A model generated the notes under the pieces. The model saw only the letters and a list, made by a program, of their open reading frames with translations, did no database searches and was not told where the DNA came from. Both the position numbers and the translations under genes were made by a program. A DNA stretch of 41,985 bases from a virus, in the IMG/VR virus record IMGVR_UViG_3300027743_000050, positions 1 through 41,985 of that record, one strand, 5' to 3'. Position 1 is the first letter of the stretch. Every line of letters starts with the position of its first letter. This document shows, in pieces, positions 424 through 7,493 of the stretch.

Positions 424-554
424 GGCCTGCACTCCCGTTTCCCTGATCCTGCGCCCCTGGAGCGCGGGGGATCAAGTCATGCACGAACGTGCAAATCCTG
501 GACTTTTCGGACGAAAAATCGGGCAAGTCATTGATATTGCAGGCAGAATGTGCC

Positions 555-583
555 TTGCAAGTCGCAAAATGCGACATTATAAT
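555..583 (+). promoter_or_regulatory. Sigma70-like early promoter
   Basis: TTGCAA at 555-560 and TATAAT at 578-583 are separated by exactly 17 bases, which is close to the sigma70 consensus. The spacer contains the perfect palindrome GTCGCAAAATGCGAC, so a bound repressor would occlude RNA polymerase. Transcription would run right into the 71-residue gene and the cassette-bearing module. Confidence 0.75.
561..575. promoter_or_regulatory. 15-bp operator, left copy
   Basis: GTCGCAAAATGCGAC is a perfect 6-bp dyad around AAA. Its exact reverse complement, GTCGCATTTTGCGAC, occurs at 7271-7285, directly upstream of a small HTH gene. The identical 15-mer at two control points is best explained as the binding site of that HTH protein; this is inference from position and symmetry. 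Confidence 0.7.
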
Positions 584-662
584 AGAGGCTCTATTGGGAG
601 TGACTGTTTAGACGACGTTCTGCACTCCCCCGCTGTTTGAAAATTCGATCGCCCTGGATCAC

Positions 663-878
663 GTGTCCACAACGGCCCAGGCTTTACCCGCTGATCGATC
701 CATAGTCGTCCTAAGTCGCAAGCGCAGAAGTCGCTCGCGTCCCGCAGTGATTGCGCGACGCAGCGAGGCAATCGGCATTGCCCATCTGGCCTATCGGAAT
801 TTCGCCCCGGCCATTCGAGGATTGAGCCCGACGCTTGCAGATGTGAGGAAGACCGAAAACGACTCCATGACAGTGTGA
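663..878 (+). CDS. Hypothetical basic protein (71 aa), first gene after the early promoter
   Basis: The frame starts with GTG at 663 and ends with TGA at 876-878, at the left edge of the first intergenic cassette, as several other genes in this module do. The protein has a basic stretch (RKRRSRSRP) at about residues 19-27 and no motif I recognise. There is only a weak GGA upstream. The main support is its position between the promoter and cassette 1. Confidence is moderate because the start is GTG and composition is not distinctive. Confidence 0.45.
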   Translation: MSTTAQALPADRSIVVLSRKRRSRSRPAVIARRSEAIGIAHLAYRNFAPAIRGLSPTLADVRKTENDSMTV

Positions 879-988
879 CAATACTTAGGGCGGCGAACGC
901 GACTCACGTTGCGCGCGCCGCCTCAGAGTGTTGCTGACGCAGCACTCGTCGCCTTGCAGCGACGTTTCTCGAAATGGAGTCACAACCA
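876..988 (+). repeat. Three-hairpin intergenic cassette 1 (diverged copy)
   Basis: Hairpin 1 pairs GGCGGCG (889-895) with CGCCGCC (916-922) around a 20-base loop. Hairpin 2 pairs AGTGTTGC (927-934) with GCAGCACT (939-946), including one G-T wobble. Hairpin 3 pairs CGTCGC (947-952) with GCGACG (959-964) around the loop CTTGCA. The ribosome-binding segment GGAGTCACA follows at 976-984 and the next gene starts at 989. The architecture matches cassettes 2-7, but all three stems have different sequences. Confidence 0.8.
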
Positions 989-1174
989 ATGGAAGTCAAC
1001 ACCCGAGAATTTGAATTCTCGCACGGCAAGAAACCCCGAGGCTCCGGCTTCTGGATTTTCTTTTTCGACAATGCGCGCACGTTCACGTTCGCCGGCAAAT
1101 ACGGCGATGCCGTTCGTGCCGCAAAGATCGAGGCCCGCCAGCAAGAAGTTTACGAGATCAAGGTGGGGCCGTGA
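989..1174 (+). CDS. Hypothetical protein (61 aa)
   Basis: I start at ATG 989 rather than the in-frame ATG at 974, because 974 lies inside the ATGGAGTCACA segment that acts as the ribosome-binding site in every cassette. The protein starts MEVNTREFEFSHGKKPRG, has an aromatic core (FWIFFFDNARTF), and ends with a helix-like AAKIEARQQEVYEI. This pattern suggests a small alpha/beta domain; no family recognised. The next gene starts three bases after its stop. Confidence 0.75.
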   Translation: MEVNTREFEFSHGKKPRGSGFWIFFFDNARTFTFAGKYGDAVRAAKIEARQQEVYEIKVGP

Positions 1175-1176
1175 TC

Positions 1177-1380
1177 ATGAGCACATCGATCGATCACATC
1201 AAACTGGCCGACGGCGCGCGCGTGCGCTGCGGCCTGATCGTTCACCGCGCGGATGATCCGTTCCACTTGGGACGGATCGAAGCCGTGCACGGCAACATGA
1301 AGCTGACAGTAAAGTGGGAAAACGGATGGCTTGAACTTGGATGCGAGCCGGACGAATTCGCACGCTGGAGCGGGGAGTGA
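1177..1380 (+). CDS. Hypothetical small beta-rich protein (67 aa)
   Basis: Starts at ATG 1177 (MSTSIDHIKLADGARVRCG) with GGTGGGG upstream; a GTG at 1171 overlapping the previous stop is an alternative. The sequence alternates short strands with glycines and ends WLELGCEPDEFARWSGE. It looks like a small SH3-like or beta-barrel domain, but that is only a visual impression. It is the second gene of the unit driven from cassette 1. Confidence 0.7.
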   Translation: MSTSIDHIKLADGARVRCGLIVHRADDPFHLGRIEAVHGNMKLTVKWENGWLELGCEPDEFARWSGE

Positions 1381-1385
1381 TCAGA

Positions 1386-1475
1386 ATGCTCGCCGTTTAC
1401 ATCACTGCAACGATCCTGGCCGTGCCGGCCGGAATATGGATCGGACTTAAACTTGCCGATCTGACTTACCGATGA
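1386..1475 (+). CDS. Single-span membrane peptide (29 aa)
   Basis: ATG at 1386 follows GGGGAG, formed by the end of the previous gene, at good spacing. The peptide MLAVYITATILAVPAGIWIGLKLADLTYR is almost entirely one hydrophobic span. Its TGA (1473-1475) is the first three bases of the TGATCACT that opens cassette 2, the same arrangement as the stops before cassettes 3, 5, 6 and 7. This shared boundary is the main reason to accept so short a gene. Function unknown. Confidence 0.6.
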   Translation: MLAVYITATILAVPAGIWIGLKLADLTYR

Positions 1476-1571
1476 TCACTAAGGACGGCGCCGCGTGCGC
1501 CGTCTCATAGTGTTCAATCGAACACTACGCTGCCTTGCATGCAGCGTTTCTCGAAACATGAGTCACACATC
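1473..1571 (+). repeat. Three-hairpin intergenic cassette 2
   Basis: Hairpin 1: outer CACTA (1477-1481) with TAGTG (1508-1512), inner GACGGCGC (1484-1491) with GCGCCGTC (1497-1504). Hairpin 2: AGTGTTC (1509-1515) with GAACACT (1520-1526). Hairpin 3: ACGCTGC (1527-1533) with GCAGCGT (1541-1547) around CTTGCAT. The bases AGTG at 1509-1512 belong to both hairpins 1 and 2. A GAGTCACACATC segment leads to the ATG at 1572. Confidence 0.85.
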
Positions 1572-2597
1572 ATGACAACTACCCAAGCGTCTAACCAGTC
1601 CGGCGTGACAATCGCGAAGGCAGCTGAGCTGCTGGAGGATTACACCGAAGCTGGCGACAACGTTTTCCTCTGGGGCGCTCCCGGTATCGGCAAAACCGAC
1701 ATCGCGCACCAACTCGCAGCGCGCAAGAAGCGGCGCCTGATCGAGTTTCACGCAGCGTTGCGTGAACCAGTGGACTTGCGCGGCATTCCTGCGGCCGATC
1801 ATAAGACGATGACCACGAAGTGGTTCACGCCGGATGAATTGCCGCAAGCCAAGCGCGATGGCGAGGAAGGCTACTTGTTCCTCGACGAATTCAATCAAGC
1901 CAGCCCGCAGATGCAGGCCGTGCTGGCAGGATTGGTGCTGTACGGAAACATTGGCGACTATCGTCTCCCGAAAGGCTGGCGATGCATCGCTGCAGGAAAC
2001 AGCGTTTCCGACCGTGCAGCCGCGCAACGAATGCCGACGCATATGCGAAACCGTTTCGCGCACGTTTACTGCGTGCCGGACGTGATCGCGTGGACGAATT
2101 GGGCGACCGCCAACGGCGTCGAGCCGGAAATGATCGCCTTCATTCGTTTGCGACGTGAGCTGATCCACCGCATGCCGCGCGGTGACGAGAATGCATTTCC
2201 CACGCCGAGGTCGCTGACCAAAGCCGCGAAATACATTCACCATCCGGACGATCGCCGCTTGCGATTGTTCGCGGGATTGATCGGGGATGACGTTGCAGCC
2301 GAGTTGAACGGCTTCATCCGCCTCTATCACTCGCTGGGAAGCCTGGAAGATATCGTCGCCAATCCTGATCGTGCGCCGATACCGACGCAAGCCTCCGAAC
2401 GCTGGGCCGTCTGCACTGGCCTTGCCCGTCTCGCGGATCGCAAAAACTTTCCGCAGATCATGAAGTATGCCGCGCGCCTCGACGGGGAGCCGGCCACGTT
2501 GCTTGTTCATGACGCAACGATGATCAAGCCGGAGCTGAAACAAACGTCTGCCTATTCAAAGTGGGCAGTCGAGCATGCCGACTTGATCCTGCAGTGA
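1572..2597 (+). CDS. MoxR-type AAA+ ATPase (341 aa)
   Basis: Walker A is GAPGIGKTD at residues 35-43, Walker B is LFLDE at 103-107 within GYLFLDEFNQASP, sensor 1 is AAGN at 141-144, and an arginine-finger-like RNRF follows at about 160-163. This order and the FLDEFNQA signature fit MoxR-family AAA+ ATPases, which work as chaperone-like remodelling motors with a VWA-domain partner. A DUF2201/VWA protein lies two genes downstream, matching that pairing. The start at 1572 follows the cassette's GAGTCACA segment; an upstream in-frame ATG at 1539 is inside hairpin 3 and is unlikely. The substrate in a phage is unknown. Confidence 0.9.
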   Translation: MTTTQASNQSGVTIAKAAELLEDYTEAGDNVFLWGAPGIGKTDIAHQLAARKKRRLIEFHAALREPVDLRGIPAADHKTMTTKWFTPDELPQAKRDGEEGYLFLDEFNQASPQMQAVLAGLVLYGNIGDYRLPKGWRCIAAGNSVSDRAAAQRMPTHMRNRFAHVYCVPDVIAWTNWATANGVEPEMIAFIRLRRELIHRMPRGDENAFPTPRSLTKAAKYIHHPDDRRLRLFAGLIGDDVAAELNGFIRLYHSLGSLEDIVANPDRAPIPTQASERWAVCTGLARLADRKNFPQIMKYAARLDGEPATLLVHDATMIKPELKQTSAYSKWAVEHADLILQ

Positions 2598-2694
2598 TCA
2601 CTAAGGACGGCCCCACGCGGGGCCGTCTCATAGTGTTCATGACGAACACTCCCGCCCTTGCAGCGGGATCATCTGCAAAATGGAGTCACACATC
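2595..2694 (+). repeat. Three-hairpin intergenic cassette 3
   Basis: Hairpin 1: CACTA (2599-2603) with TAGTG (2631-2635), inner GACGGCCCC (2606-2614) with GGGGCCGTC (2619-2627). Hairpin 2: AGTGTTC (2632-2638) with GAACACT (2644-2650), loop ATGAC. Hairpin 3: CCCGC (2651-2655) with GCGGG (2663-2667), loop CCTTGCA. GGAGTCACA follows at 2682-2690, before the ATG at 2695. The stop of the MoxR gene is the TGA of TGATCACT. Confidence 0.87.
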
Positions 2695-3786
2695 ATGCCT
2701 ACCAAGACCACAGGCGCGGCGAAACGCAACGCAAAGGGGCTTCCCCCGATCGTCGCGAAAAAGTCGAAGGCCAAGGCGCACACTTCCAAGGCTGCACCGC
2801 TGGCGATCGTGAAGGCTGACAAGCCCGCACCGAAGCCCGTCGCGCCGCCCGCGCCGAAGCCCGCTCCCGTGATCACTAAGACAGTCGTCGCCACGCCGCT
2901 CTCGCGGAAGGCCACGCTTGTCGCCGTAGTGATCTCGCAATGGACAGCCCGCAAGCTGGACAAGAAAGTGACCGATGAAGTCAATCGTTCACATGGAGCT
3001 GCAGCCGACGCCGGACGATTCAACAAGTTGCTGATCGAGGCCGCGCGCCTCGAAAAGCTCGGATCGCTCGTGTCGCAAGCCCGCCACGCACATTATCGCT
3101 ACACGAAGCCGTGGTGCGATGAAGGAATGAGAATCCTGCCGAACGCTCTGCATCAAAAGTTTGCCGAGGAGTTTCGCAGGATCAAACGGGAATTCCATAT
3201 CGCGGCCGATGAATTCTGCCGCGACTACCCGTCATTCGTGGCTGAACGCAAGAAGGCGTTGAATGGATTGTTCAACGCTGCCGACTATCCGGACGCAAAG
3301 GAAATTCGTGCCAAGTTTCAACTCGACACGAAAACATTCCCCGTGCCGGACGCTGGCGACTTCCGCAGCGACGTGCTCGATCATGACACGATCGAGGACA
3401 TCAAGCGGGAGCTGGCCGAGACGAACGAACAAGTGCTGGCCGACGCCACCCGCCACTCGATCGATCAGATCACGCGGATCGTTGGCCACATGTCGGAAAA
3501 GCTGTCGGAATACAAGCCGGGAGCGCCCGTCAAGAAAGGCAAGGGCGGCAAGCCGAAGAAAACATTCTTCACCGACTCGCTCGTGGAAAACGTCCGCGAG
3601 CTGGCCGACTTGTTGCCTGCGTTCAATCTGACGAATGATCCGAAGATGGATCACATCGCCAGTCGCATCAAAAAAGAGTTGTGCACCGAGGATGCCGCGG
3701 AATTGCGAGTGAGCGAACGTGCTCGCGATGCCGTGCAGAAGTCGGCAGACGACATTCTTAAAGATGTGAACAAGTTGCTCGGCTAA
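2695..3786 (+). CDS. Unknown protein between MoxR and VWA genes (363 aa)
   Basis: I use ATG 2695 after the GGAGTCACA segment; an ATG at 2680 lies inside the leader. Residues 1-65 are a Lys/Ala/Pro-rich low-complexity tail (for example KAHTSKAAPLAIVKADKPAPKP), probably disordered. The rest is strongly helical and charged, with no catalytic motif I recognise. The middle of the protein is aromatic and rich in Asp, Arg and Lys, and a second basic segment (KKGKGGKPKK) lies near residue 285. Sitting between the ATPase and its likely VWA partner, it is a candidate adaptor, substrate or third subunit; that role is inferred only from position. Confidence 0.85.
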   Translation: MPTKTTGAAKRNAKGLPPIVAKKSKAKAHTSKAAPLAIVKADKPAPKPVAPPAPKPAPVITKTVVATPLSRKATLVAVVISQWTARKLDKKVTDEVNRSHGAAADAGRFNKLLIEAARLEKLGSLVSQARHAHYRYTKPWCDEGMRILPNALHQKFAEEFRRIKREFHIAADEFCRDYPSFVAERKKALNGLFNAADYPDAKEIRAKFQLDTKTFPVPDAGDFRSDVLDHDTIEDIKRELAETNEQVLADATRHSIDQITRIVGHMSEKLSEYKPGAPVKKGKGGKPKKTFFTDSLVENVRELADLLPAFNLTNDPKMDHIASRIKKELCTEDAAELRVSERARDAVQKSADDILKDVNKLLG

Positions 3787-3890
3787 GACGAGCTGCAGCG
3801 TGATCAGCGACTCGAATCGAGTCGCTGATTGCAGTGGAGCTAGTCCACTCCCCGCCTTGCAGCGGGGCCTTTCCAAAATGGAGTCACATC
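3784..3890 (+). repeat. Three-hairpin intergenic cassette 4 (fully substituted stems)
   Basis: Hairpin 1: CTGCA (3793-3797) with TGCAG (3830-3834) outside a perfect 12-bp stem, ATCAGCGACTCG (3803-3814) with CGAGTCGCTGAT (3818-3829). Hairpin 2: AGTGGA (3833-3838) with TCCACT (3844-3849). Hairpin 3: CCCCGC (3850-3855) with GCGGGG (3862-3867), loop CTTGCA. GGAGTCACA follows at 3880-3888. Hairpins 1 and 2 differ in sequence from the other cassettes yet keep the same positions and pairing, which is the clearest compensatory change of the set. Confidence 0.87.
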
Positions 3891-5339
3891 ATGGAAACCA
3901 AAACCGACAAGGTTGCCGGCGATCGTGTCCGCAAGGCGCGCGCCGAGTTGATCTTGTCGCAAGTGTTCTACAGCGTGCTCGTTTCAAACGTTGATCCGAA
4001 GCCGTCGCGGGCGATCCCCACGATGGCAACGGATGGCCGGAACCACTTCTATAATCCGGACTTCATTGCGAAGCTGAATCAAACGCAGCTGCTCGCAGTG
4101 CAGGCGCACGAAAGCGAACACGATGCCCGTCGCCATCACAGCCGACGCAATGGCCGTGATCCTGCGAAGTGGAACGAAGCCTGCGACTACGCAATCAACG
4201 TTGATCTCGTGGACGCCGGCTTCCAGCTTCCAGATTGGGTGCTCCTCGATCCGAAATATCGCGGCATGTCTGCCGAGGATATCTATCGGACACGGGAGCT
4301 GGATCAGCAGAAGGAGGAGGAGGCCAAGAAGCCACCGCCCCCGGATGACGATCAAGACGAGCCCGAGGACGGCGAGGACGATCAGGAGCAAGACGATCAG
4401 TCGGAGGATGACAGCGACACCGGCGACGGTGACGACGAATCCGAGGACGACGCCGAGGACGATGACGCCGACGAAGGCGACAGCGACCAGGGCGGTGATG
4501 ATCAGTCCGAAGATGGCGCCGACGGCGACTCCGGAAACGGGGATGCCGAGGGCGAGGACGAAGCCGACGGACAGGGCGAAGGCCAAGCCGAAGGCGACGG
4601 CCAGGATCGCCCCGGCAAGTCGAGTGGCGATCCTGGCGGGATGGGCGAAGTGCTCGATGCCGCGACGGATGCAGCCGACATGGCCGCAGCCGATGCCCAA
4701 TGGGAGACAATCTTCCGACAGGCCGCGTTCCTCGCCGAGAAGCGGGGCACGGCTCCTGGGCACGTTACAAGAGAGATCAAGCGCGCGGACAATCCCCCGC
4801 AAGATTGGCGAGAGACGTTGCGCGCTTGGTTCGATCAGGGATCACTCAAAGTCGAAAGCTGGAACCGTCCGAACCGGCGCTTCGCCGGGGCGGGCATCTA
4901 TCTTCCTGGCCAGAGGCGGGACGGGATCAACCGTGCCGTGTTCCTGATCGACACGAGCGGATCAATGGACCCGATCGCGTTGGCCGCCATCAATAACGAA
5001 GCGCAAGCTGCGATGGACGATGGCGTGCTTGACGAAGTGATCGTGATCTATGGCGACGTTCGTGTGACGCGCGTCGATACCTACCGCCAAGGCGATGAAA
5101 TCGAATTCGATCCCCGAGGCGGGGGCGGCACTGATCTCAAGCCGCTGTTCAAACACGTTGCAGACGAGCTGGAAGATGTATCCTTGATCGTCTGCTTCAC
5201 CGACATGGAAATTGGCGATCCTGGCCCCGAGCCCGCGTGCCCCGTGCTGTTCGCAGCAACGGGATATCCGGAATCGGTGCGACGATATCTCGCCAACGCT
5301 CCGTGGAATTCTCCCGGCATCGATGTCGGGACGCATTGA
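3891..5339 (+). CDS. DUF2201-like metallopeptidase/VWA protein (482 aa)
   Basis: The N-terminal domain (about 1-140) contains HESEH at 73-77 followed by RRHH, an HExxH-type zinc site typical of the putative metallopeptidase domain of DUF2201 proteins. Residues about 141-245 are an extreme Asp/Glu/Gly-rich linker. The C-terminal VWA domain carries the MIDAS motif DTSGSM at 354-359, then GGGGTDL and FTDMEIG. DUF2201/VWA proteins are typically encoded beside MoxR ATPases, and one is present two genes upstream. The start at 3891 follows the cassette's GGAGTCACATC; an upstream in-frame GTG at 3834 lies in the cassette. The acidic linker could mimic nucleic acid or bind cations; this is inference. 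Confidence 0.88.
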   Translation: METKTDKVAGDRVRKARAELILSQVFYSVLVSNVDPKPSRAIPTMATDGRNHFYNPDFIAKLNQTQLLAVQAHESEHDARRHHSRRNGRDPAKWNEACDYAINVDLVDAGFQLPDWVLLDPKYRGMSAEDIYRTRELDQQKEEEAKKPPPPDDDQDEPEDGEDDQEQDDQSEDDSDTGDGDDESEDDAEDDDADEGDSDQGGDDQSEDGADGDSGNGDAEGEDEADGQGEGQAEGDGQDRPGKSSGDPGGMGEVLDAATDAADMAAADAQWETIFRQAAFLAEKRGTAPGHVTREIKRADNPPQDWRETLRAWFDQGSLKVESWNRPNRRFAGAGIYLPGQRRDGINRAVFLIDTSGSMDPIALAAINNEAQAAMDDGVLDEVIVIYGDVRVTRVDTYRQGDEIEFDPRGGGGTDLKPLFKHVADELEDVSLIVCFTDMEIGDPGPEPACPVLFAATGYPESVRRYLANAPWNSPGIDVGTH

Positions 5340-5430
5340 TCACTAAGGGCGGCCCTGCGGGGCCGCCTCGTAGTGTTCATTCCGAACACTCGCCCATCTT
5401 GCATGGGCGTTTCTCAGAAGGAGTCACGTC
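5337..5430 (+). repeat. Three-hairpin intergenic cassette 5
   Basis: Hairpin 1: CACTA (5341-5345) with TAGTG (5371-5375), inner GGCGGCCC (5348-5355) with GGGCCGCC (5360-5367). Hairpin 2: AGTGTTC (5372-5378) with GAACACT (5384-5390). Hairpin 3: CGCCCAT (5391-5397) with ATGGGCG (5403-5409) around CTTGC. GGAGTCACG precedes the ATG at 5431. The VWA gene stop is the TGA of TGATCACT. Hairpin 1 shows A-to-G and matching changes relative to cassette 3 (GACGG to GGCGG, CCGTC to CCGCC). Confidence 0.87.
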
Positions 5431-5607
5431 ATGGCTACGAAAGTTGGTCGCGCACGAGCGTTGCGAGCGTGGGAGACAATGCGCTCCCCGGTTTGGCAAC
5501 GGCAGCGACGGAAGATTGAGAATCTGCGGCAAGCCCTCGCCGCAGCGCGTCGCGAGCTGATCACTGCACTGTCCAATCTGGACAAAGTGATTAAGCAGTC
5601 ATCATGA
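5431..5607 (+). CDS. Small basic helical protein (58 aa)
   Basis: ATG 5431 lies directly after the cassette 5 ribosome-binding segment. The protein starts MATKVGRARALRAWETMRS, is rich in arginine, and its second half (KIENLRQALAAARRELITAL) would form a heptad-like amphipathic helix. Its TGA overlaps the ATG of the next gene (ATGA at 5604-5607), so the two are probably translationally coupled. No family recognised; a nucleic-acid or protein-binding helix is possible. Confidence 0.7.
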   Translation: MATKVGRARALRAWETMRSPVWQRQRRKIENLRQALAAARRELITALSNLDKVIKQSS

Positions 5608-5786
5608 ACCGCAGCGACTTCTTTGATCAAGGCTACGAACAACACGCTTCCGCCCCCGACATGTTGATGACGGAAGTCTGGCGTTTCGCTTGCATGTTCA
5701 TCACGGATCAAGAGAACGCCCGCGCCTTCGTTGAGGGTTACACCGCCGCGCGCAAGCAGCGCGACGAACGCAACGCAGAACAGTGA
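5604..5786 (+). CDS. Hypothetical protein (60 aa)
   Basis: Starts at ATG 5604 inside the previous gene's stop. The protein, MNRSDFFDQGYEQHASAP onward, is helical and contains EVWRFACMFITDQENARAFVEGY, which looks like one or two amphipathic helices rather than a transmembrane span. Its stop is the TGA of TGATCACT that opens cassette 6. Function unknown. Confidence 0.7.
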   Translation: MNRSDFFDQGYEQHASAPDMLMTEVWRFACMFITDQENARAFVEGYTAARKQRDERNAEQ

Positions 5787-5881
5787 TCACTGCAGGACGC
5801 CGCCGCTGTGCGGCGTCCGACAGTGTTCATGCCGAACACGCCCCGCCTTGCAGCGGGTTTTTCGAAAAAGGAGTCACAGTC
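5784..5881 (+). repeat. Three-hairpin intergenic cassette 6
   Basis: Hairpin 1: CACTG (5788-5792) with CAGTG (5821-5825), inner GACGCCGC (5796-5803) with GCGGCGTC (5810-5817). Hairpin 2: GTGTTC (5823-5828) with GAACAC (5834-5839). Hairpin 3: CCCGC (5842-5846) with GCGGG (5853-5857), loop CTTGCA. GGAGTCACA lies at 5870-5878. About 70 bases are nearly identical to cassette 7, so one probably arose from the other recently. Confidence 0.87.
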
Positions 5882-6130
5882 ATGTTACGAGTTTTGTTTG
5901 GCGTCATCCTCGCCAGCATCTTCGGCCGGTCAAGCGTATCGGTCGAAACGAACGTGCAAACGTTCACAGACGAGCTGCCGGACGACGAGCTGCCCGAGGA
6001 TGTCGGCGAAGTCGCCGAGGACTACGACTTGCTCGATGTCGATCTTGCCGACGGCCTGATCGATGACGTGAGCGATTCGCTGTTCGATGATCTCGGCGGA
6101 TCAGTCCTCGACTCATTCCTCGACTGCTGA
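5882..6130 (+). CDS. Acidic protein with a hydrophobic N-terminus (82 aa)
   Basis: ATG 5882 follows the cassette 6 GGAGTCACAGTC segment. Residues 1-15 (MLRVLFGVILASIFG) form a short hydrophobic segment that may be a membrane anchor or uncleaved signal. The remainder is very acidic, with repeated DELPDDELPED, DLLDVDLADGLIDDV and DLGGSVLDSF blocks. The many Asp and Leu residues suggest an amphipathic acidic surface, perhaps a DNA mimic or inhibitor; this is speculation. No family recognised. Confidence 0.7.
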   Translation: MLRVLFGVILASIFGRSSVSVETNVQTFTDELPDDELPEDVGEVAEDYDLLDVDLADGLIDDVSDSLFDDLGGSVLDSFLDC

Positions 6131-6141
6131 GGAGGCGAACG

Positions 6142-6288
6142 ATGGAATCATTATTGATGGGCATCCTCATGATCGCAGTCGGCGTCGGAGTGTGCTGGCT
6201 GGGAAATGCCAAAGCCAGAAGACGACGGCGGCTGATCATAGAACGCTACGAAATTCTCCGAGAGCACGCCGCGCGGAAGCGCAAGTGA
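6142..6288 (+). CDS. Single-span membrane protein with basic cytoplasmic tail (48 aa)
   Basis: ATG 6142 lies eight bases after GGAGG, the best ribosome-binding site in this module. Residues 4-20 (LLMGILMIAVGVGVCWL) form one transmembrane span, followed by KARRRRR and a helical RYEILREHAARKRK tail; by the positive-inside rule the tail is cytoplasmic. It is 11 bases downstream of the acidic membrane-like protein, so a charge-complementary pair is possible. Its TGA opens cassette 7. Confidence 0.65.
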   Translation: MESLLMGILMIAVGVGVCWLGNAKARRRRRLIIERYEILREHAARKRK

Positions 6289-6379
6289 TCACTGCAGGAC
6301 GCCGCCGCTGTGCGGCGTCCGACAGTGTTCATACCGAACACTCCCCGCCTTGCAGCGGGGCGATTGAATGGAGTCACAC
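6286..6379 (+). repeat. Three-hairpin intergenic cassette 7
   Basis: Hairpin 1: CACTG (6290-6294) with CAGTG (6323-6327), same inner stem as cassette 6. Hairpin 2: AGTGTTC (6324-6330) with GAACACT (6336-6342). Hairpin 3: CCCCGC (6343-6348) with GCGGGG (6355-6360), loop CTTGCA. GGAGTCACA is at 6370-6378 and the ATG at 6380 follows. This is the last copy; the downstream gene ends at an ordinary terminator. Confidence 0.87.
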
Positions 6380-7027
6380 ATGCCTAAGTTACCCAAGTGG
6401 CGGCCGTTGCAGCGCGCAACGACTGCCGGACGGGAGAATGCCGAAGCCGTCGCCACGGCCATGCAAACGTATGGCCTGGACGAAGCAGCGGCACGGGCAA
6501 AACTTGATGCCTACGCCGCCGAGTCTGAATACTGGATCAACGATCTCTATCAAGTCCAAGTCCGACGCTACGCCGATCTCACTCACATCAATATCCGACG
6601 ACGCGACGGCGGCCCGATCCTGCGAGACTGGCGACACTTCCAGCAGATCAAGAATGAGTTGGTCGGCACGGAGGCGGAAGCCGTCGAGCTGTATCCAGCT
6701 GAGAGTCGGAAGTGGGATGAAGCCAACAAGTATCATCTTTGGTGTCTGACGGACGGCTCGCGCTTTCCGTTCGGCTTCGATGATCGTCACGTCAGCTTCG
6801 ACAGCGGCAAGGCCCGTGGATTGCGGCAACGGGGCCGCACGATGGAATTCCCCGATGATGACAAGTCCACAGCGCAGGAGCTGGGACCGCAGAGACGCGC
6901 CTGCAGAATGTGCGGAGCGACCGAGGGCGAGCTGCATCACGATCAATCCGCGCGCGATCGAATGACGACGCTCGATCCGCGACTCGTCTGCATGCTCTGC
7001 GCAGAAGGACTGGCCGAGCTAGACTGA
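6380..7027 (+). CDS. Phage protein with DUF7694-like domain and zinc-finger tail (215 aa)
   Basis: ATG 6380 follows the cassette 7 leader; an upstream ATG at 6368 is within it. Residues about 50-122 (YWINDLYQVQVRRY, DWRHFQQIKNELVG, AVELYPAESRKWDEANKYHLW) match my memory of a widespread phage domain, DUF7694, of unknown function. The C-terminus holds C175-x2-C178, HH at 186-187 and C204-x2-C207, a likely zinc site. That combination is reminiscent of small nucleic-acid binding modules. It closes the cassette-bearing module and is followed by a strong terminator. Confidence 0.85.
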   Translation: MPKLPKWRPLQRATTAGRENAEAVATAMQTYGLDEAAARAKLDAYAAESEYWINDLYQVQVRRYADLTHINIRRRDGGPILRDWRHFQQIKNELVGTEAEAVELYPAESRKWDEANKYHLWCLTDGSRFPFGFDDRHVSFDSGKARGLRQRGRTMEFPDDDKSTAQELGPQRRACRMCGATEGELHHDQSARDRMTTLDPRLVCMLCAEGLAELD

Positions 7028-7032
7028 AACTC

Positions 7033-7068
7033 AAAACCCCGACCACTTGCGTGGCCGGGGTTTTTTTT
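7033..7068 (+). terminator. Rho-independent terminator
   Basis: CCCCG-A-CCAC (7037-7046) pairs with GTGG-C-CGGGG (7051-7060) around TTGC, followed by eight Ts at 7061-7068 and preceded by AAAA. It ends transcription of the cassette-bearing module six bases after the last stop codon. Confidence 0.93.
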
Positions 7069-7304
7069 GGCGTGGCAGTCTTGCATACAGCCAGCCCGCC
7101 GCGCGCTCTGCGAGTCACACGAGCACGGCACGCGCGATTGCGTGAAGTGGTATCCCGTTCGTATCGTCCGCACAACAAGCCGTTGCCCAAGTCCCGCACG
7201 TGCGGGCTCGACTTGACGCAGCAAGCTGTGCCCGATCGTGCGTCACTTGCAAAAGTTTATCTTGTGCAATGTCGCATTTTGCGACACGTTCAACGGAGTG
7301 AAAG
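7069..7304 (+). promoter_or_regulatory. Leader region of the HTH gene
   Basis: No gene is supported in this stretch. It separates the terminator from the HTH gene and contains the second copy of the 15-bp operator at its end. TTGCAA at 7247-7252 resembles the -35 of the left promoter, but I see no convincing -10 at the right distance. GGAGTG at 7295-7300 serves as ribosome-binding site. Confidence 0.5.
7271..7285. promoter_or_regulatory. 15-bp operator, right copy
   Basis: GTCGCATTTTGCGAC, the exact reverse complement of the operator at 561-575. It lies 20 bases before the start codon of the HTH protein, a position suited to autoregulation. Confidence 0.7.
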
Positions 7305-7493
7305 ATGCAAACGAAAACATTCGTCAGGCAAGTCCGCCAGGAGCTTGATCTGCGGCAGCTGGACTTCGCTGCCGCGCTTGGAGTCTCGCGTGCGACGATC
7401 GTTCGTTATGAGAACGGGGCATCCGTCCGCCCCATTGTCCTACGTGCGATCCGTCAACTGCGAGAACAACACAAGAGGAAAAGGAAGACATGA
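7305..7493 (+). CDS. Small XRE-type helix-turn-helix regulator (62 aa)
   Basis: The protein is essentially one HTH domain: VRQELDLRQLDFAAALGVSRATIVRYENGAS spans the recognition helix (about residues 10-40), followed by a basic tail KRKRKT. It belongs to the Cro/CI/XRE class. A perfect palindrome sits in its leader and an identical one in the early promoter at 555-583, so it probably represses both. The ATG at 7305 has GGAGTG upstream. Its TGA overlaps the next ATG. At 62 residues it has no effector or dimerisation domain beyond the HTH itself. Confidence 0.85.
   Translation: MQTKTFVRQVRQELDLRQLDFAAALGVSRATIVRYENGASVRPIVLRAIRQLREQHKRKRKT

Follow-up and report, generated by a model that had tools for sequence, protein, structure and literature searches.

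The closest described counterparts of the system reported here are phage antisense RNAs and repeated sequences at phage gene starts. The c4 antisense RNA of P1 and P7, whose target is the ant mRNA, blocks translation around the ribosome-binding site (RBS) through complementary loop sequences (PMC12197685; PMC8198154), and the sar RNA of P22 and the OOP RNA of lambda, both phage RNAs from the opposite strand, pair with phage mRNA and repress it in this way (PMC12197685). In cluster K mycobacteriophages, start-associated sequences (SAS) with a Shine-Dalgarno (SD) core precede a subset of genes, half of them with upstream inverted repeats (extended SAS, ESAS); according to Pope et al., changes in the ESAS arms do not support RNA pairing, and DNA-binding sites were proposed instead (PMC3203893). 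Here we analyzed the IMG/VR record IMGVR_UViG_3300027743_000050, whose whole 41,985-base stretch is referred to as the window and which represents a tailed phage with baseplate wedge, tail fiber, endolysin, and RecT-type genes. One operon of this phage carries seven intergenic cassettes, each consisting of three hairpins (1 to 3, with the loop CTTGC in hairpin 3), a (G/T)GAGTCAC segment referred to as the RBS segment, and the ATG of the next gene. Based on computational evidence throughout (sequence comparison, folding, and hybridization energies), we consider it probable that these cassettes are the translational leaders of one operon and that all of them are controlled by a single trans-acting antisense RNA, encoded convergently past the operon terminator.

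The predicted RNA resembles c4 in being phage encoded and in carrying its complementarity at the ribosome-binding site in loops, two loop segments having computed complementarity, with own-phage specificity, to ribosome-binding-site sequences of the same phage. c4 precedes its immunity operon on the same strand and acts in that one operon, whereas the present locus is located beyond the end of the operon, the opposite strand is favored by promoter and folding evidence, and the convergent RNA would hit every cistron via the repeated cassettes. No Rfam model, that of c4 included, matched the window or five relatives at the gathering threshold, and at an E value of ≤1 nothing relevant was returned for positions 500 to 7400. 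By analogy, the predicted RNA may work like c4, its nearest functional precedent, but we do not class it as a c4 member. It differs from sar and OOP, which have long complementarity to an overlapping locus, in that two short loops match several distant sites. The nearest start-associated repeats, SAS and ESAS, resemble the cassettes in that a start-associated sequence containing an SD core is repeated in front of some of the genes. In contrast to them, the cassettes have strongly conserved pairing, three hairpins, a matching RNA locus, and an unrelated sequence: the 13-bp SAS consensus GGGATAGGAGCCC is absent from the cassettes, which carry (A/T)GGAGTCAC and variants, and they covary strongly where ESAS have inverted repeats without RNA covariation.

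The cassettes belong to a covarying RNA family

The cassettes lie at 879-991, 1473-1574, 2595-2697, approximately 3791-3893, 5337-5433, 5784-5884, and 6286-6382. An earlier note on this DNA, made from the sequence alone, had described seven three-hairpin cassettes confined to one gene module and had read their compensatory stem changes as selection on RNA structure or on palindromes. All seven are present and not due to chance: covariance model R1, which we built from 16 cassettes of the window and its relatives, scores them at 40 to 92 bits (E values of 2e-8 to 3e-23). The hairpin 2 stems quoted at the time are also right, namely, AGTGTTGC/GCAGCACT in cassette 1 and AGTGGA/TCCACT in cassette 4, whose hairpin 1 is unrelated in sequence, and no T tract that would make hairpin 1 an intrinsic terminator follows it in any cassette of the window.

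Model R1 was run on 27 related viral records, which are metagenomic and mostly incomplete and were collected by protein queries and a few DNA-pattern matches, the latter confirmed by R1. Loose DNA-pattern searches of IMG/VR and GTDB contigs gave mostly chance matches and were abandoned. The element was found in 21 of the 27 records, always clustered on one strand within one operon, which agrees with the claimed confinement to one module; about ten more phages joined the family later. At E ≤ 0.1, R1 gave no match in a control set of 100 viral contigs totaling 812 kb, and it likewise gave none in 10 loci where distant versions of these genes occur. Versions of the ATPase and DUF2201 genes with about 30% identity are present without cassettes in named phages, Schitoviridae among them (L406, L407, L408, and L409), and in Rhizobium phage RHEph24 these two genes overlap. 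The gene right behind the element codes for the ATPase, the DUF3150-like protein, or the DUF2201 protein in 13 cases each, and the remaining elements precede variable small genes. Across 75 element sequences, 93.1% of the stem cells in the alignment were paired, compared with 67.8 ± 0.8% after shuffling, and two-sided stem changes numbered 283 compared with 72 ± 7 (0 of 500 shuffles). Together with three-way changes, many G·U pairs on the mRNA strand, and the strict sense orientation before genes, this strong covariation in pair counts bears out selection on RNA structure. A description of the cassette element was not found in the literature searched.

Comparative evidence for two helices competing for one strand

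Hairpins 1 and 2 had been described as independent, and for this reason a two-state switch went unnoticed. Both hairpins exist, but they have a strand in common and hairpin 1 is longer than described: its base, TGAnCACTA...TAGTGTTCA, uses bases of the left arm of hairpin 2, and the two hairpins therefore cannot coexist. We named the strands A (5′, TGAnCACTA), M (shared, AGTGTTC), and C (3′, GAACACT); A and C are near copies, each complementary to M. When the 5′ part was folded, M was bound to A in 72 of 73 parsed elements, and the exception, a misparsed cassette 6, also folds as A:M.

Both helices are maintained across the family. The A:M helix was paired in 88.8% of cells, with two-sided change in all five of its pairs and a closing pair that is A-U in 34 of 74 copies and G-C in another 34, while the M:C helix was paired in 97.4% of cells with two-sided change in six of seven pairs. 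In control structures with the partners slid by 1 to 3 columns, pairing dropped to 25 to 54%. Swapping M between elements weakened the duplex from −9.8 to −7.1 ± 0.25 kcal/mol for A:M and from −9.8 to −6.3 ± 0.23 kcal/mol for M:C (0 of 1,000 swaps in either case), the two native helices having equal mean energy. Among the 33 divergent elements without GTGTTC, the swap likewise gave 0 of 5,000 for A:M and 0 of 5,000 for M:C. In some phages, all three strands changed together (TTGTTGC/GCAGCAA/TGCTGC in L403, TTCTA/TAGAGAA/TTCTCT in L387, and CATCA/TGATG/GCATCA in L382), and such simultaneous changes are explained well only by two selected pairings. Comparative analysis, then, shows two helices that compete for M and are both kept by compensatory change. 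In alternative folds A:M was favored by just 1.8 ± 2.7 kcal/mol, and the choice between the two states is therefore finely balanced.

A locus past the operon matches hairpin 3 and the RBS segment

The stems of hairpin 3 vary. Its loop, like the RBS segment, hardly changes within a phage but differs from one phage to another. The combinations include CTTGCA with GGAGTCAC, CTTGCT with GAGGAGTC, CTAGCA with GGAGTCTACAATG, and CGCAAC with AAATGGAGA, and others exist. Near constancy within the window agrees with what had been noted before, except that cassette 2 reads TGAGTCACA and not GGAGTCACA. One gene in L124 and one in L403 have a promoter of their own, and their leaders consist of hairpin 3 and the RBS segment only, at or near the predicted transcript start; hairpins 1 and 2 are therefore features of the intercistronic state, and by this comparison a separate module is formed by hairpin 3 with the RBS segment. 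These leaders stand at about 8393 in L124 and about 9169 in L403 (reverse strand), where the next operon, with a helix-turn-helix (HTH)-like gene, starts with the promoter TTGCGC-17-TATGTT, behind which hairpin 3 and ATGGAGTCACC-ATG come almost immediately; this operon would also be a target of the same predicted antisense RNA. In L415, five leaders (8866, 9990, 10938, 12946, and 13584) all share CGGAAATGGAGATTTCCAA, with the RBS inside a palindrome.

Directly past the operon terminator, and without a start codon, a second copy of the loop and the RBS segment forms a pair of hairpins, the second of which carries the RBS segment in its loop. Such loci were found in 11 phages, and their loops match the phage's own hairpin 3 loop and own RBS segment. 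In the window, this locus takes the system, which the earlier note had ended at 6379, to about 7142. The predicted small RNA (sRNA) lies on the minus strand at 7027-7142, with an uncertain 5′ end (weak −10 GATACC at 7154-7149 and −35 TTGTTG at 7178-7173). It would comprise hairpin Hb (minus strand, 7099-7131), whose loop TGTGACTCGC (7119-7110) complements GAGTCACA(C) in the cassettes, hairpin Ha (minus strand, 7069-7096), whose loop TATGCAAGA (7087-7079) is complementary to the hairpin 3 loop CTTGCA(T), and a bidirectional terminator (7027-7068, stem 7037-7060) with T8 at 7061-7068 on the plus strand and TTTTGAGTTT at 7036-7027 on the minus strand. In each cassette of the window, 7 to 9 nucleotides (nt) of the RBS segment are perfectly complementary to the Hb loop. 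The loop region of the terminator (within 7037-7060) also has CTTGCG, similar to the hairpin 3 loop, and the close relative L370 is without it.

The opposite-strand RNAs were hybridized in silico with the cassettes, and the energies were centered by row and column. Own-phage hybridization was best (11 phages, 0 of 200,000 permutations; nine phages, P = 1e-5; seven distinct phages, P = 2e-4), although these values are optimistic, as the permutations treat paralogous elements within a phage as independent. L412 and L415, checked after the other nine phages, have matching Ha and Hb loops, as had been predicted before their loci were inspected, despite a different hairpin 3 loop (CGCAAC) and different RBS segments (AAATGGAGA and GGAGATTTCCAA), and in L415 the complement to its own RBS is perfect over 12 nt.

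On the operon strand, Ha, the first hairpin, follows the terminator T run too closely for a promoter to fit in between. On the minus strand, sigma70-like promoters stand just upstream of Hb (combined Fisher P = 2e-5, versus 0.13 on the plus strand), for example, TTGAAA-16-TTAAAT in L412, TTGCGC-17-TAGATT in L375, TTGCGC-17-TAGAAT in L403, and TTGCTT-17-TACCAT in L378. The value of 2e-5 comes from a later scan that was anchored at Hb and included L412, L415, and the plus-strand control; a first scan with wider bounds gave P = 0.02. The minus strand is also more structured (Wilcoxon P = 0.016), and L412 has a T tail on this strand only. A strand call from G·U versus A·C pairs in the terminator stems looked convincing by eye and was dropped after a G·U count of 4 versus 6 between the strands. 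From promoters and folds, we infer that opposite-strand transcription of the locus yields an sRNA of about 100 nt in the order Hb, Ha, and terminator.

Proposed control of the operon and alternative explanations

A list of possible roles had been offered before, namely, processing, stability, or translational control, without a named mechanism. Our data point specifically to a phage-encoded antisense RNA that would control translation by reading the invariant parts, loop 3 and the RBS segment, and to a two-state switch in addition, with a possible processing role for hairpin 1. The Ha loop of the sRNA would first kiss hairpin 3, and the Hb loop would then cover GGAGUCAC (GAGUCAC), so that ribosome loading would be blocked at each cistron. 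Less firmly, the choice between A:M and M:C may report whether the preceding gene is being translated, given that the upstream UGA is located within A or beside it: among elements with a clear upstream open reading frame (ORF), the stop codon falls within −9 to +2 of strand A in 48 of 56, and in about half the TGA is inside the strand A helix. A ribosome at this UGA would melt A:M, and M:C would form and stack on hairpin 3 (the gap between hairpins 2 and 3 is 0 in 64 of 71 elements). In addition or instead, the rod of about 20 bp formed by A:M and hairpin 1 might be an RNase III-type site, with M:C left at the new 5′ end. Judging from this anatomy, the A/M/C switch probably couples repression to translation of the preceding gene. 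The full proposal is that each cistron has a bistable three-strand switch that senses preceding translation or processing, that all cistrons are silenced by one coevolving antisense RNA that shares the terminator convergently, and that loops and RBS segments drift as a phage-private code insulating related phages; we put this forward tentatively, being slightly more inclined to doubt it than to accept it in every part.

Phage antisense RNAs usually silence one message; here, if the proposal is true, one RNA addresses a whole operon by a repeated tag, and the address tag and the RNA coevolve as a phage-specific code. The leaders also provide a natural set, of a kind seldom available, of helices that exclude one another and whose three strands change together, useful for testing RNA-switch design and covariation methods, and a repeated leader with one RNA offers a ready design for synthetic multigene control. 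The ATPase/vWA-like module of the operon is widespread and of unknown function, and the antisense RNA would be a handle on when it is used.

Several observations weigh against antisense control. The Hb loop of the window reads CTCG where the SD complement is CTCC, the minus-strand promoter of the window is unremarkable (P = 0.57; P = 0.04 for the close relative L370), and the G·U counts in the terminator stems do not discriminate between the strands. The promoter bounds were altered after a first look, the searches for promoters and post-terminator loci were in part post hoc, and the permutation values are optimistic, as noted above. A nonexhaustive search did not find a matching locus in some phages whose operon end is present, L386 and L429 (RBS GAGCAAG) being among those without one. 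The unpaired probability of the RBS segment on folding is 0.08 to 0.85, which leaves it only partly accessible in most cassettes of the window, and the homogeneity of loop and RBS segment within a phage could arise by gene conversion or from a protein ligand.

The best surviving alternative is that the cassettes serve mainly RNA processing as intercistronic RNase III sites, whose cleavage frees M for C and gives each mRNA a 5′-terminal hairpin. This would account for M pairing both ways, and the geometry, which is all that is compared here, is that of an RNase III site: an irregular intergenic duplex of about 20 bp in which two helices of about 9 to 10 bp (A:M, 8 to 12 bp; upper stem, mostly 7 to 13 bp) are most commonly joined by a 1×2 or 2×2 internal loop, with 18 to 28 nt (mode, 21 to 22) from the outer pair to the apical loop of hairpin 1. 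The early region of phage T7 has RNase III sites of similar build, irregular two-helix hairpins with an internal loop in early-operon gaps; we know of no shared-strand alternative hairpin, conserved loop/RBS module, or antisense RNA at the T7 sites. The promoter-led leaders of L124 and L403, starting at hairpin 3, likewise fit a role for hairpins 1 and 2 that is limited to the gaps between genes. However, processing leaves the fixed hairpin 3 loop, the RBS segment, and the coevolving post-operon locus unexplained, and it would require the host enzyme, since a phage-encoded RNase III was looked for and not found. We consider it somewhat unlikely as the principal role; it can coexist with antisense control.

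Translational coupling alone, in which hairpins 1 to 3 pass terminating ribosomes on from the UGA to the following start and no trans factor takes part, is unlikely. The stop-codon positions given above, including the TGA within the helix, are what it predicts, but post-operon coevolution and phage-specific loops remain outside its reach, and the first cassette is preceded only by a weakly supported ORF (663-878). An RNA-binding protein of the phage or host might instead recognize the hairpin 3 loop and the RBS segment, with the post-terminator copy acting as a sense decoy that titrates the protein on read-through. Hairpins bound by proteins typically combine a fixed loop with a variable stem, the sense sequence is the same in the post-terminator copy, and a coevolving protein would also fit the homogeneity within phages. 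The decoy, however, is at odds with the missing promoter space between the terminator T run and Ha, with promoter enrichment on the minus strand only, and with the better folding of that strand and the minus-only T tail of L412, and the 12-nt RBS duplication of L415 is well beyond a typical protein site. We find this explanation quite improbable and rank the sense-strand decoy below the antisense RNA. Sites acting at the DNA level, whether operators or ESAS-like dyads, are hardly credible: hairpin 2 is a 6- to 7-bp dyad with conserved spacing in many copies, but spacer length varies, the sequence turns over fully with pairing retained, sense-strand G·U pairs are frequent (e.g., 16 U-G at one hairpin 2 pair), and every copy is sense oriented directly before a start codon.

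Two further candidates were rejected. An IS200/repetitive extragenic palindrome-like single-stranded DNA site was dropped in view of the sense-only orientation and the sense-strand G·U pairs, and SD sequestration by CTC(C) after hairpin 2 was dropped because the triplet is not conserved.

Layout of the operon and further observations

All cassettes are on the plus strand. In cassette 1, A is CAATACTT (879-886), M is GAGTGTTGC (926-934), and C is GCAGCACTC (939-947), followed by hairpin 3 (947-964), the RBS segment (976-984), and ATG (989). Cassette 2, before the AAA ATPase gene, has A TGATCACTA (1473-1481, including the upstream stop codon), M (1508-1516), C (1519-1527), hairpin 3 (1527-1547), the deviating RBS segment (1559-1567), and ATG (1572). 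Cassette 3 precedes the DUF3150-like gene, with A at 2595-2603 (stop TGA), M at 2631-2639, C at 2643-2650, hairpin 3 at 2651-2667, the RBS segment at 2682-2690, and ATG at 2695. The divergent cassette 4, before the DUF2201 gene, consists of A AGCTGCAGCG (3791-3800), M GCAGTGGAGCT (3831-3841), C TCCACT (3844-3849), hairpin 3 (3850-3867), the RBS segment (3880-3888), and ATG (3891). The corresponding positions in cassette 5 are 5337-5345 (A, stop TGA), 5371-5379, 5383-5390, 5391-5409, 5420-5428, and 5431. Cassettes 6 and 7 share strand A TGATCACTG, with the stop TGA, at 5784-5792 and 6286-6294, respectively; M, C, hairpin 3, RBS segment, and ATG follow at 5821-5829, 5833-5840, 5842-5857, 5870-5878, and 5882 in cassette 6 and at 6323-6331, 6335-6342, 6343-6360, 6370-6378, and 6380 in cassette 7, which precedes the DUF7694 gene.

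Within positions 450 to 7400 there is one operon, with a strong sigma70-like promoter (TTGCAA-17-TATAAT, 555-583, plus strand) and a terminator at 7037-7068. On the plus strand, it encodes the AAA ATPase (1572-2597; phrog_1297, Pfam AAA_5), the DUF3150-like protein (2695-3786; sub-threshold Pfam match, E value of 3e-4), the DUF2201 metallopeptidase-like/vWA-like protein (3891-5339; phrog_1314), and, as the final gene, the DUF7694 protein (6380-7027), besides small unknown proteins. A host search through bacterial genomes matched the DUF3150 protein to distant relatives only. Within the spacer of the predicted operon promoter lies the palindrome GTCGCAAAATGCGAC (561-575), which recurs at 7270-7286, upstream of an HTH-like gene at 7305, and is likely the operator of this regulator.

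A second leader family, without hairpin 3, was seen before at least six genes in L386 (12246, 13120, 13634, 14219, and 15208) and L422 (12597-15152). Its order is GTTTCG, a GC hairpin, CGAAGCGCC, and then GGCGACTTC directly before a GAGCA-type start, and it seems to use the same shared-strand logic with unrelated sequence. In L421 (5758-15426), the SAS-like GGAGTC(A) stands shortly before the ATG at many gene starts, often without the three-hairpin element.

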